Assembly (NCBI GenBank): GCA_902775485.1
Contig: CACYMJ010000007.1
Coordinates: forward strand, 79,210-143,209
Direction of reading: 5' to 3'
Origin: an uncultured Lachnospiraceae bacterium
GTDB lineage: Bacteria > Bacillota > Clostridia > Lachnospirales > Lachnospiraceae
DNA length: 64,000 nucleotides
A model generated the notes under the pieces. That model did not search any database, was not told the origin of the DNA, and was given only the letters and a program-made list of their open reading frames with translations. Shown piece after piece: positions 18,209 through 22,040 of the stretch (positions are counted from its first letter, which is position 1; every line of letters starts with the position of its first letter). The position numbers were made by a program, and so were the translations under genes.

Positions 18209-18400
18209 TCAGTCGAGAGCGGAGATCTTTTCCATAAGTGCATCGATATCCATGCCATGTACCATCGCAGCCTCTTCGAGAGACTCGCCCTGGGATGCGG
18301 GGCATCCGAGACAGTGCATTCCTGCTTCCATAAGAATCGGTGCAACCTCGGGCTTTGTAACGAGGATCTCGCCGATCGTCATATCTTTTGTTATTGCCAT
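18209..18400 (-). CDS. DUF1858 small redox-disulfide domain protein
   Basis: This 63-aa protein is of the DUF1858 type, a small helical domain often found with hybrid-cluster or other redox proteins. It has a CxxC pair at C30 and C33 ([19 protein letters not shown]), expected to form a redox-active disulfide or bind metal. The ribosome site GGAGGT lies just upstream on the minus strand. It is transcribed away from the pyruvate formate-lyase locus, with the two promoters back to back in about 250 bases. A role in anaerobic redox control or in protection of the glycyl-radical system is possible from position only. Confidence 0.85.
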
Positions 18401-18547: not shown

Positions 18548-18577
18548 TTGACGTGTATACAATCCACAAACTATAAT
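18548..18577 (+). promoter_or_regulatory. Sigma-A promoter for the pyruvate formate-lyase operon
   Basis: TTGACG (18548-18553), an 18-base spacer and a perfect TATAAT (18572-18577). The leader of about 70 bases holds a small hairpin, TCCGC-GAA-GCGGA (18601-18613), just before the ribosome site. Confidence 0.78.
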
Positions 18578-18652: not shown

Positions 18653-20692
18653 ATGAGATCAGAATGGAATGGTTTCGTAGGCGGTAAGTGGGAAAGCGAA
18701 GTCAACGTACGTGACTTCATCCAGAAGAACTATACTCCTTATGACGGAGATGATTCTTTCCTTGCAGGACCTACACAGAACACAAAAGACTTGTGGCAGA
18801 TGGTTCTCGACCTTCAGAAGAAGGAAAGAGAAAACGGTGGTGTGCTTGATATGGATACAAAGGTTGTTTCCACGATCACTTCACACGGCCCCGGCTATCT
18901 TGACAAGAGCAAGGAGACCATCGTAGGTTTCCAGACAGATAAGCCTTTCAAGCGTTCACTTCAGCCTTACGGCGGTATCCGTATGGCAGAGAAGGCCTGC
19001 TCGGACAACGGCTACGAAGTTGATCCCGAGATCAGTGAATTCTTCTCAACACATCGTAAGACTCATAATGCAGGTTGTTTCGATGCATACAATCAGGAAA
19101 TGAGAGCATGCCGTACATCTCATATCATAACAGGTCTTCCGGATGCATACGGAAGAGGCCGTATCATCGGTGACTACAGAAGGGTTGCTCTTTACGGTAT
19201 CGATTTCCTTATAGAAGACAAGCAGGCTCAGAAGGATTCAACAGGACGTGTTATGACTGATGATGTTATCCGTCTTCGTGAAGAGCTTTCAGAGCAGATG
19301 GTAGCTCTTAAGATGATGAAGGAAATGGCTGCTTCTTACGGATGCGATATTTCAAAGCCCGCAACAAACGTTAAGGAAGCTATCCAGGCTACATACTTCG
19401 GATACCTTTGCTCGGTTAAGGAGCAGAACGGTGCAGCAATGTCACTCGGACGTACATCAACATTCATCGACTGCTACGCAGAGCGTGACCTTAAGAACGG
19501 TACATTTACCGAGGAACAGATCCAGGAGTTCGTTGATCACTTCATCATGAAGCTTCGCTGCGTTAAGTTCGCACGTACACCTGAATACAACCAGATCTTT
19601 GCCGGCGATCCCGTTTGGGTAACCGAGTCTATCGGTGGTATCGGTGTTGACGGACGTCATATGGTAACAAAGATGAGCTTCCGTTATCTTCATACACTTG
19701 AGAACCTTGGTGCAGCTCCCGAGCCCAACCTTACGGTTCTCTGGTCAACAAGACTTCCTCAGAACTTCAAGAAGTTCTGTGCTAAGACTTCCATCAATAC
19801 ATCATCGATCCAGTACGAGAACGATGACCTTATGAGACCTGTACACGGTGATGACTATGGTATCGCATGCTGCGTATCTTCAATGGTCATCGGTAAGGAA
19901 ATGCAGTTCTTCGGAGCTCGTGCAAACCTTGCAAAGTGCCTTCTGTACGCTCTTAACGGCGGTATCGACGAGAAGACCAAGAAGCAGGTTGGTCCGAAGT
20001 ATCGTCCTTACGAAGGTGATGTTCTTGATTACGATAAGGTTATGGAACTGTTCATCGACATGGTTGAGTGGCAGGCAGATGTATATGTAAATACACTTAA
20101 CATCATCCACTACATGCATGACAAGTACTGCTATGAGAGAGCAGAGATGGCTCTTCATGACAGAGACGTTAAGAGATACTTTGCAACAGGTATCGCAGGT
20201 CTGTCGATCGTTGCCGATTCATTCTCAGCTATGAAGTATGCAAAGGTTGAGTGTATCAGAGACGAAGACGGTATCATCACAGACTTCAAGATCACAGGCG
20301 ACTTCCCTAAATACGGTAACGATGATGACCGTGTTGATGCGATCGCAAAGGAAGTTGTTCATAAGTTCATGACAGCTATCAGACGTCATCATACATACAG
20401 GAACGGTATTCCTACAACGTCTATCCTTACCATCACATCAAACGTTACATACGGTAAGGCAACAGGTAACACACCTGACGGACGTCGTGCAGGACAGCCT
20501 TTCGCACCCGGTGCTAACCCGATGCACGGCCGTGATACACACGGAGCTATCGCTTCGCTTTCATCTGTATCAAAGCTTCCGTTCAATGATGCACAGGATG
20601 GTATCTCTAATACATTTACCATCATCCCCGCTGCACTTGGTAAGGAAGATCAGGTATTTGCAGGCGATATCGAGCTCGATCTGAATAAATAA
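18653..20692 (+). CDS. pflB: Pyruvate formate-lyase catalytic core lacking the glycyl-radical domain
   Basis: This 679-aa protein covers the 10-stranded barrel of formate C-acetyltransferase, which converts pyruvate and CoA to acetyl-CoA and formate. The N-terminus is normal ([21 protein letters not shown]), and the active-site cysteines are C406-C407 in YGIACCVSS. It also has [22 protein letters not shown] and [25 protein letters not shown]. It stops after [18 protein letters not shown], where a full-length enzyme (about 740-760 aa) would continue into the glycine loop, so RVSGYA is absent from this polypeptide. AGGAGG precedes ATG 18653. The missing domain is encoded separately at 20962. 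Alone this protein cannot hold the radical, so it must work with a partner. Confidence 0.93.
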
Positions 20693-20713
20693 TGCAGACA
20701 GGAGGTGACATTT

Positions 20714-20908
20714 ATGGATCAGATAGATGATCTTGTAGCATTCCTTGACGGTTCCGTCGAGGCCGGAGTCGGACATTTGAACGTAGATGTCGATGAGGAA
20801 CAAAAAGAAGCAAGAAGTACTGAAACCATGGGCTGTACCGATTGCTCGAGGACACCGCTCGCATGCAGTGTTCCGACACTTCATCAGGGCCTCGATGATT
20901 ACAGATAG
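20714..20908 (+). CDS. 64-aa protein related to the start of the glycyl-radical domain, with Cys-containing tail
   Basis: The N-terminal half (DDLVAFLDGSVEAGVGHLNV) matches the start of the neighbouring 80-aa radical-domain protein ([20 protein letters not shown]) at 12 of 22 positions when extended by two residues. The second half is unrelated: it lacks the RVSGYA glycine loop and instead has GCTDCSRTPLACSVPTLHQ, with three cysteines including a CxxC. The gene has its own GGAGGTG (20701-20707) six bases before ATG 20714, and starts 21 bases after the pflB core. It may be a specialised third subunit that occupies the radical-domain site, or a decayed duplicate. No known family is recognised for the tail. 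Confidence 0.8.
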   Translation: MDQIDDLVAFLDGSVEAGVGHLNVDVDEEQKEARSTETMGCTDCSRTPLACSVPTLHQGLDDYR

Positions 20909-20961
20909 GAGCGACCCATCGAAGATGGGAAGAAACAGATTAAAAAAAGGAGGAAAATATT

Positions 20962-21204
20962 ATGGCAGCTAATCAGGCACAGGTTGATAACCTTGTAAAT
21001 CTTTTAGACGGATACGCAACAAAAGGTGGACATCACCTTAACGTTAACGTACTTAACAGAGAGACTCTTCTTGATGCTCAGGCACATCCCGAGAATTATC
21101 CTCAGCTTACGATCAGAGTAAGCGGATATGCCGTTAACTTCATCAAGCTTACACCGGAGCAGCAGGCAGACGTTATCTCTCGTACATTCCACGAGGCTAT
21201 CTGA
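20962..21204 (+). CDS. Stand-alone glycyl-radical domain of pyruvate formate-lyase (GrcA/YfiD-like)
   Basis: This 80-aa protein equals the C-terminal domain of pyruvate formate-lyase: [18 protein letters not shown], then [14 protein letters not shown], with radical-bearing Gly55, then [14 protein letters not shown], the normal C-terminus of the full enzyme. AAAGGAGG lies just before ATG 20962. In E. coli the similar GrcA protein replaces an oxygen-damaged domain of an intact enzyme. Here the main enzyme lacks the domain altogether, so this small protein should be the normal radical carrier, activated by the PflA encoded next. It is the third gene of the operon; a hairpin follows. Confidence 0.93.
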
Positions 21205-21220
21205 ACCAGGTAATCTATTG

Positions 21221-21249
21221 CGAGCCCGAAACACAGCGTTTCGGGCTCG
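21221..21249 (+). terminator. Hairpin between the radical-domain gene and pflA
   Basis: CGAGCCCGAAAC pairs with GTTTCGGGCTCG around a short ACAGC loop. The T run after it is poor (TATGTCTTTT), so it may attenuate rather than end transcription, giving less pflA message than structural-gene message, or it may protect the upstream RNA. Confidence 0.7.
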
Positions 21250-21272
21250 TATGTCTTTTGCGGAGGAATAAA

Positions 21273-22040
21273 ATGACCAAAGGCCGCATACATTCACTTG
21301 AAAGTTTCGGTACCGTAGACGGACCGGGAACAAGATACGTAGTATTCGTACAGGGCTGTCCGATGAGGTGTATGTATTGCCACAATCCCGATACGTGGGC
21401 AATGACAGGCGGAGAGATGATGGACCCCGAGTACATTATCGAGCAGTATCTTCATAATGAACCTTTTTATAAAAACGGCGGCGGACTGACCGTTACGGGC
21501 GGGGAACCGCTTATGCAGGTCGATTTTCTGATCGATCTGTTCACGCTGTGCAAACAGCATAATATCCACACATGCATCGATTCATCGGGTATTGCCTACA
21601 AACCCGATAATAAGGTCCTTATCGAAAAACTTGACAGACTCATGGAACTGACGGATCTTGTCATGCTCGATATCAAACACATAGATCCGGATATGCACAT
21701 GAAGATAACGGGTCAGCCCAATGACGGGATACTTGCTTTTGCACAGTATCTTTCCGAAAAGGGTGTGGACACCTGGATCAGACATGTTATCGTTCCGGGT
21801 CTTACGGATGACGATAAGTACCTGTATGATCTCGGATATTTTATCGGGGGGCTGAAAATGCTCAAAGCCCTCGATGCACTCCCGTATCACACGATGGGAA
21901 AGGCAAAATACGAAAAACTGGGATTTGATTACCCGCTAAAGGACACGCCTCCGATGGACAAGAAGGATCTTATAGCCAAAAAGGAAGTCATTCTCCAGGG
22001 TATCAGGGACAGGAGAAAAACGGACGGTGTGCCGGTATAG
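21273..22040 (+). CDS. pflA: Pyruvate formate-lyase-activating enzyme
   Basis: This 255-aa radical SAM enzyme uses a [4Fe-4S] cluster and S-adenosylmethionine to create the glycyl radical. The cluster cysteines are C29, C33 and C36 in GCPMRCMYCHNPDTW. TVTGGEPLMQ and DIKHIDPDMH are the other family motifs. CGGAGG precedes ATG 21273. It follows the split pyruvate formate-lyase genes and would install the radical on Gly55 of the 80-aa protein. Its length and motifs are those of the ordinary activase, so no special adaptation to the split enzyme can be seen by eye. Confidence 0.96.
   Translation: MTKGRIHSLESFGTVDGPGTRYVVFVQGCPMRCMYCHNPDTWAMTGGEMMDPEYIIEQYLHNEPFYKNGGGLTVTGGEPLMQVDFLIDLFTLCKQHNIHTCIDSSGIAYKPDNKVLIEKLDRLMELTDLVMLDIKHIDPDMHMKITGQPNDGILAFAQYLSEKGVDTWIRHVIVPGLTDDDKYLYDLGYFIGGLKMLKALDALPYHTMGKAKYEKLGFDYPLKDTPPMDKKDLIAKKEVILQGIRDRRKTDGVPV

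Follow-up and report, generated by a model that had tools for sequence, protein, structure and literature searches.

The pyruvate formate-lyase (PFL) of an uncultured Lachnospiraceae bacterium is encoded in pieces: a core gene that stops short of the glycyl-radical loop is followed by a separate gene for an 80-aa radical subunit, and between the two lies a third gene, whose 64-aa product carries cysteines and lacks the radical glycine. The locus belongs to a stretch of 64,000 nucleotides, hereafter the window. Judged from its sequence, the enzyme is very probably a two-part PFL, in which a radical subunit of the GrcA3 family, loaded by PflA, would dock into the core; quite probably, too, the split goes with a third element, two cysteines close together that come from the middle gene or else from a tail of the core. 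As a full explanation we lean towards a multi-polypeptide PFL with a cysteine element that would most likely act as a cap. The features of the locus are the following:

18548..18577, + strand: sigma-70-like promoter TTGACG-18-TATAAT, 5' of the core gene (11 of 12 matches to the consensus; overall, the scan gave 5 sites against a shuffle mean of 6.9, i.e. no excess)
18653..20692, + strand: pflB core, 679 aa plus stop, with the catalytic barrel and Cys406-Cys407 and no glycyl-radical loop (TIGR01255 and alignment)
20714..20908, + strand: middle gene, 64 aa, between the core and radical genes, with an AGGAGG ribosome site and no radical glycine
20962..21204, + strand: glycyl-radical subunit of the GrcA3 family, 80 aa, with the radical Gly55 in RVSGYA (NF038360, 161.8 bits)
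21219..21251, + strand: 14-pair hairpin with a T-rich tail in the gap between the radical-subunit gene and pflA, a terminator or attenuator (consensus scan; 4 such sites against 2.5 expected)
21273..22040, + strand: pflA, a radical-SAM activase by sequence (GCPMRCMYCHNPDTW)

The pflA motif GCPMRCMYCHNPDTW occurs downstream, within 4 kb, in 49 of the 67 split loci among the matches listed. An Rfam scan of the whole window gave no match at gathering scores. On the minus strand, at 18209-18400 of the window, lies a 63-aa cysteine-containing ORF (HCLGCP) whose transcription points away from the pfl run, and which presumably resembles a DUF1858-type protein.

The core protein scores 1104.5 bits against TIGR01255 (cut-off 994.2), matching positions 2-665 of the 744 in the profile, and residues 9-681 of Escherichia coli PFL (PDB 1h16) align to it. 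The Cys406-Cys407 pair is retained in this alignment and RVSGY is absent from the core sequence; TIGR01255 also expects the radical motif in the same chain, and here that motif sits in the 80-aa protein. The latter aligns in turn to residues 680-758 of the E. coli enzyme, with Gly55 falling on Gly734, and exceeds the cut-off of 158 bits for NF038360 (GrcA3), and its 101.2 bits against TIGR04365 (GrcA) lie below the cut-off of 170. Because these alignments are complementary, the two proteins split PFL near residue 680 and lose little or nothing of it. The 80-aa gene follows the core stop codon after 269 nt and is preceded by the ribosome site AAAGGAGG; it and the 64-aa gene each have a site of the AGGAGG type. 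The profile and structure alignments thus bear out the initial annotation, which had described a core that ends before the glycine loop, keeps Cys406-Cys407 and lacks RVSGYA, and a downstream 80-aa protein that carries the missing domain, with Gly55 and a ribosome site of its own.

The same break recurs in other organisms. For the named-genome sample we took the best 80 relatives of the core among the matches listed, which are no census, and with the window these make 81 loci: 67 are split and show their radical gene, two are of the split type with the contig ending before the small gene (L078 and L112, which we counted for tails only), eight are fused, and in the remaining four the contig ends inside the core, so that they stand outside every split or fused count. 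The check proposed at the outset, that the small gene should follow the same break point, thus came out in 67 of the 69 split-type loci among the matches listed. The relatives listed come from Lachnospiraceae, Oscillospiraceae (including Ruminococcus bicirculans), Erysipelotrichaceae, Collinsella and others, and further from one Spirochaetales bin and two Gastranaerophilales bins. The sequence IACCVSSM was found in all 77 cores checked among these matches, the eight fused ones included.

That the split is correctly observed and not an artefact is confirmed. An assembly error was rejected as its source because the split is found in more than 50 genera. A frameshift or read-through joining the core to the small gene was likewise rejected as a general explanation: the gap between core and radical gene leaves a remainder of 0 in 16, 1 in 29 and 2 in 22 of the 67 split loci (window included, among the matches listed) when divided by three, and a variable frame offset disfavours programmed events of either kind.

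Within the window's family we surveyed 140 genomes, no two from the same genus, and found 54 with a split core and a radical gene within 1.5 kb, and two more (G022 and G128) with the same parts interrupted by contig ends, hence 56 split genomes in all; 52 others had a fused PFL alone, three had a partial core only, and no PFL of this type was found at E <= 1e-60 in 29. Strong matches to the middle gene (E < 1e-8) were found in 36 of the 56 split genomes, in none of the 52 fused-only genomes, and in G006. The third element therefore goes with the split and not with PFL as such. In an even draw of 159 genomes across the phylum, the middle profile found no match besides the window's genome at E <= 1e-6, and the radical domain was matched in 46 (E <= 1e-22), in open frames of 741-819 aa with two exceptions, the window (86 aa) and G333 (198 aa). 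In this draw the split is thus rare outside the window's family; it is concentrated in that family, with a scatter of other lineages among the relatives listed above.

The middle protein is composed of two parts. The N-terminal one (IDDLVAFLDGSVEAGVGHLNVDV) resembles the start of the glycyl-radical domain: the first half of the protein matches the beginning of the radical subunit as far as the HxNV strand ahead of the radical loop (hhalign 95.1%, E 3e-8, 31 columns), and this part alone, with no RVSGYA, yields 21.8 bits against NF038360, well below the cut-off of 158, so that the protein does not qualify as GrcA3. The C-terminal part is a cysteine segment (GCTDCSRTPLACSVPTLHQGLDDY) that takes the place of the radical loop; the loop and everything after it are missing, and in the window a segment ending ACSVPTLHQGLDDYR stands there instead. 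Our alignments covered 38 of the 46 middle proteins (A1), 31 of the 67 radical subunits (A3) and all 22 core tails (A4). D12, H21, C51 and P54 are invariant across the 38 middle proteins aligned, and the 46 proteins among the matches listed contain two to four cysteines each. The middle gene is under purifying selection: dN/dS between the window and its nearest relative, L034, is 0.047, equal to that of the radical subunit, and the median over the 116 scorable of 406 pairs from 29 close loci is 0.114. In G012 and G026 the gene is shortened and stops just past a CxxC.

Searches of Pfam and NCBIfam with the middle protein returned no family at cut-off, and none pointing to an Fe-S small subunit, and no PDB chain was matched at E <= 10; its AlphaFold model is weak (mean pLDDT 63). 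As far as these searches and those of the literature reach, the cysteine element is undescribed in both of its forms, gene and tail. Weak profile matches led to another family of small proteins, akin to the middle protein, in which GVxRxKV replaces GHxNV and a YHHGRCDxGSPxAxG motif is present. Its members are L144:2960-3154, L147:969-1163 and L148:2600-2812 and, on the reverse complement, L145 2655-2852 and L146 1569-1787; they belong to five genomes (G100, G116, G112, G060 and G080), with no adjoining PFL core in the stretches read, and reached no cut-off in NCBIfam (L144, L145 and L147) or Pfam (L145 and L147).

Where a split locus lacks the middle gene, its core extends beyond the usual end into a segment such as ...DCDNGACSTPTLFEGLDAE. 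An hhalign-type profile comparison matches the middle-protein profile to the 22 core tails across the cysteine part (95.5%, E 1.4e-8). The tails have no radical-domain homology, and the cysteine segment alone is common to tails and middle protein. Gene and tail are complementary. Among the 54 split loci of the survey, 32 have the gene between core and radical subunit, 20 have a cysteine tail, and the two with neither (G002 and G130) carry the middle gene elsewhere in the genome, so that the cysteine element is present in all 54, whether in cis or in trans. Of the 34 survey genomes in which the middle gene is linked, we read the core end in 31 (29 of the 32 loci plus G022 and G128, with G073, G110 and G127 left out), and no cysteine was found there in any of the 31. 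The 69 split-type loci of the named-genome sample (the window plus 68, among the matches listed) divide into 46 with the gene, 22 with a tail and one with neither, and none of the 46 gene-bearing loci has a cysteine within the last 22 residues of its core. The locus with neither is that of Collinsella aerofaciens (L102), in whose whole genome no middle gene was found. The two sets of counts are not fully independent, as some organisms of the survey may recur among the named loci. The initial annotation, which had described a two-part system, thus overlooked a third, cysteine-bearing element that accompanies nearly every split enzyme.

Each of the 46 middle proteins and 22 tails among the matches listed has at least two cysteines, the nearest pair being separated by none to eight residues, and only two cysteines are present in 10 of these middle proteins and 16 of these tails. 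Copies of the middle gene that stand apart from a core, and that contig ends do not explain, occur in three genomes, G002, G130 and G006. At the G130 locus (L178, G130:C48) the core gene is followed by pflA and then by the radical-subunit gene, and a different contig (L187) carries the middle gene, an arrangement from which it follows that the parts need not adjoin. In G006, a genome 67% complete in which no PFL was found, the middle-type gene (L151, 1379-1579 on the reverse complement; G006:C13) is flanked by two genes that do not resemble PFL genes.

In the tree of cores (76 of 91 rows, close middle-type rows having been thinned, L079 being absent and L061 left out as too short), the split enzymes form one large group, and eight distant fused enzymes lie outside it. 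This is a quick tree, with 20 of its 73 inner branches under 80% support, and its outgroup is not clean, since L006, one of four outgroup rows, fell inside a nested fused group. The label fused or split changes four times on the tree, at least three changes being required even if only well-supported branches count; the tree reads most simply as one split followed by three re-fusions. The apparent re-fusion groups are a Roseburia-like group of 13 rows (11 distinct loci, two genomes appearing twice), the pair L096 and L111, and G096. Most re-fused enzymes lack the cysteine element: no cysteine follows the core in the Roseburia-like fused group, one is kept there in L096 and L111, and the fused enzyme of G096 (L154, G096:C26) has five. 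In the last, a core tail seems to have been joined in frame with a radical subunit; this enzyme is an exception to the loss of cysteines on re-fusion, and shows how re-fusion might happen. Searches of the whole genomes G011, G074, G096 and G108 returned no match to the middle gene at E <= 0.001; for the named fused loci, the gene was sought in the stretch around the locus.

Several known systems resemble parts of this one. PflB (TIGR01255; E. coli 1h16) is like the window's enzyme in core sequence, cysteine pair and PflA partner, and the two window proteins together cover it; unlike PflB, the window's enzyme has its radical domain on a separate polypeptide and an extra cysteine element. The radical domain of GrcA/YfiD (TIGR04365; 6owr) is the same by sequence as that of the 80-aa protein. 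However, YfiD repairs an oxygen-cleaved PFL that was originally one chain, whereas no intact PFL was found in the window's genome, and YfiD begins with 60 disordered residues that are absent from the 80-aa carrier. The radical-subunit half of the system is partly known, GrcA3 being already a named NCBI family, and in this respect the system is not unique; the NCBI entry, which we compared by name and scores, reads 'autonomous cofactor', and its name mentions neither a truncated core nor a cysteine element. By sequence, the solved structures nearest to the core are two formate acetyltransferases, PDB 38la and 38lb. The 38la chain stops at LGKED, at about the break point, and may be a natural split or a truncated construct; in 38lb, 44 residues follow the core match. 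Neither entry contributes a chain to the PDB matches of the 80-aa radical subunit. With GrcA3 named and these structures solved, others may be working on split PFL; our literature search, whose scope ends short of preprints and most subscription papers, found no paper on split PFL or GrcA3.

One study of the E. coli proteins (PMC8683613) reports that YfiD can serve as a separate radical carrier, and that PFL truncated at residue 695 has wild-type activity once it carries activated YfiD. In the same study, no binding of YfiD to the truncated enzyme was detectable by ITC and the radical yield was down 32-fold, with PFL residues 696-733 and the first 60 residues of YfiD both mattering for binding (PMC8683613). 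The natural split core ends earlier still than residue 695, and its radical subunit is without the YfiD N-terminus. Since the E. coli truncation binds and activates YfiD poorly, a natural enzyme cut at about 680 plausibly needs a helper. Either the split parts have evolved contacts of their own or something else helps, and the cysteine element would be the obvious candidate.

Two further readings are, in our view, very unlikely. One holds that GrcA3 is a mere spare part and that the working enzyme is a full-length PFL encoded elsewhere. Three of the 56 split survey genomes (G085, G119 and G132) do contain a fused PFL of this type besides the split one, a 756-aa frame in the genome of Claveliimonas bilis (L103, split) includes a complete glycyl-radical domain, and the window's assembly is only 83.85% complete. 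Against this, the Pfam PFL-like and Gly_radical searches of that assembly found no second PFL besides the window locus, no fused PFL was seen in 53 of the 56 split genomes (35 of these 53 being at least 95% complete), and in Ruminococcus bicirculans (G301) Gly_radical matched, apart from the split locus, no more than a 724-aa frame that to us looks like NrdD and, weakly, a 760-aa one. In a genome of the window's genus that is 99% complete (G193), Gly_radical matched just twice, and the best E-value is similar. We regard the spare-part reading as scarcely credible, and the radical carrier, as first proposed, looks obligatory as well as separate. The further suggestion that it is exchangeable gains some support from seven split survey genomes with an extra standalone radical-subunit gene away from the core (neighbours read in four of the seven). 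The advantage suggested at first, cheap replacement of a small subunit after oxygen damage, is hypothetical. In genomes that have a split PFL, extra GrcA3-type genes away from the core were seen at L149 (G041:C33), L150 (G112:C18), L162 (G064:C61), L163 (G031:C17), G080:C21, G042:C178, G097:C33 (near a contig end) and G305:C1:901985-902173; it is possible that such genes are spare radical carriers. The other reading, in which the middle gene is a functionless, decaying duplicate of GrcA and the cysteine tails are unrelated to it, could draw on the weak 21.8-bit match of the N-terminal part to GrcA3 and on the shortened versions in G012 and G026, but the low dN/dS values, the four invariant residues, the match of the tail to the C-terminal part and the complementarity of gene and tail make it very unlikely.

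It is the task of the cysteine element that divides the remaining readings. We propose that the core would hold substrate and the catalytic cysteine pair, and that the 80-aa GrcA3 subunit would supply the strand, radical loop and C-terminal helix (E. coli PFL ~680-759); PflA would place the radical on Gly55 of GrcA3, which, once loaded, would dock in the core. The middle protein appears to keep the core-facing helix and the strand of the radical domain, with cysteines at the position of the loop, and may occupy the vacant radical-domain site whenever GrcA3 is missing, is away for activation or has been lost to oxygen. Its cysteines would then sit where the loop would enter the active site, beside Cys406-Cys407, and the cap would shield or quench the catalytic thiols until active GrcA3 displaces it. 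That the element's job is that of a removable cap is a fair guess at somewhat less than even confidence, with binding, capping and redox chemistry all deduced from sequence. More tentative still is the specific form of the idea, in which the middle protein would be a glycine-free counterfeit of the glycyl-radical domain, using the same docking site as a displaceable thiol cap, and the cysteine tail of the core an equivalent cap in cis. Since the tails have no strand mimic, the function common to both forms cannot be competition for the strand site. Counting against our explanation as a whole are the Collinsella locus L102 with neither form, the fused enzymes of G096 and L096/L111 that keep cysteines, the middle-type gene without a PFL in G006, and the shortened genes of G012 and G026. 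The AlphaFold models are too weak to place the cysteines near the active site, or to separate a cap from the adaptor considered next, with a pLDDT of 63 for the middle protein and under 50 for the cysteine tail of a tailed core.

Nearly as good as the cap, and itself somewhat doubtful, is a loading adaptor: the element would recruit GrcA3, PflA or both to the core, standing in for PFL 696-733 and YfiD 1-60. The natural split pair resembles truncated E. coli PFL with truncated YfiD, each of which binds poorly and with lowered activation (PMC8683613); the middle protein bears a homologue of part of that very stretch; and the element accompanies separate radical subunits and, apart from a few exceptions, does not occur without them. 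Yet the tails have no radical-domain homology and only the cysteine segment in common with the middle protein, and an adaptor leaves the cysteine pair, the sole constant feature, unexplained. The presence of at least two cysteines in every one of the 46 middle proteins and 22 tails among the matches listed would also suit a metal-binding small subunit, whose cysteines would bind Zn or an Fe-S cluster as a clamp on the radical domain. Other glycyl-radical enzymes, such as 4-hydroxyphenylacetate decarboxylase and benzylsuccinate synthase, have small cysteine-rich accessory subunits, and the analogy favours this reading. We nevertheless think it improbable: the spacing of the nearest pair varies among the matches listed, which suggests thiol chemistry over a metal site, and a dithiol fits the proteins and tails with only two cysteines better than a fixed metal site does.

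Among glycyl-radical enzymes PFL is the textbook case, and in the gut it is an important formate source. It appears that many gut bacteria assemble it from pieces, with the oxygen-sensitive radical on a small, detachable protein. A lineage that runs PFL with a detachable radical carrier, and appears to have re-fused the enzyme some three times, offers a natural experiment on why one chain normally holds both the radical and the active site, and the spare-part idea from E. coli becomes testable in an enzyme whose part looks obligatory. The cysteine element, as an unnamed protein family with a sharp pattern of presence and absence, offers a handle on how a radical enzyme may be protected while its radical domain is out.
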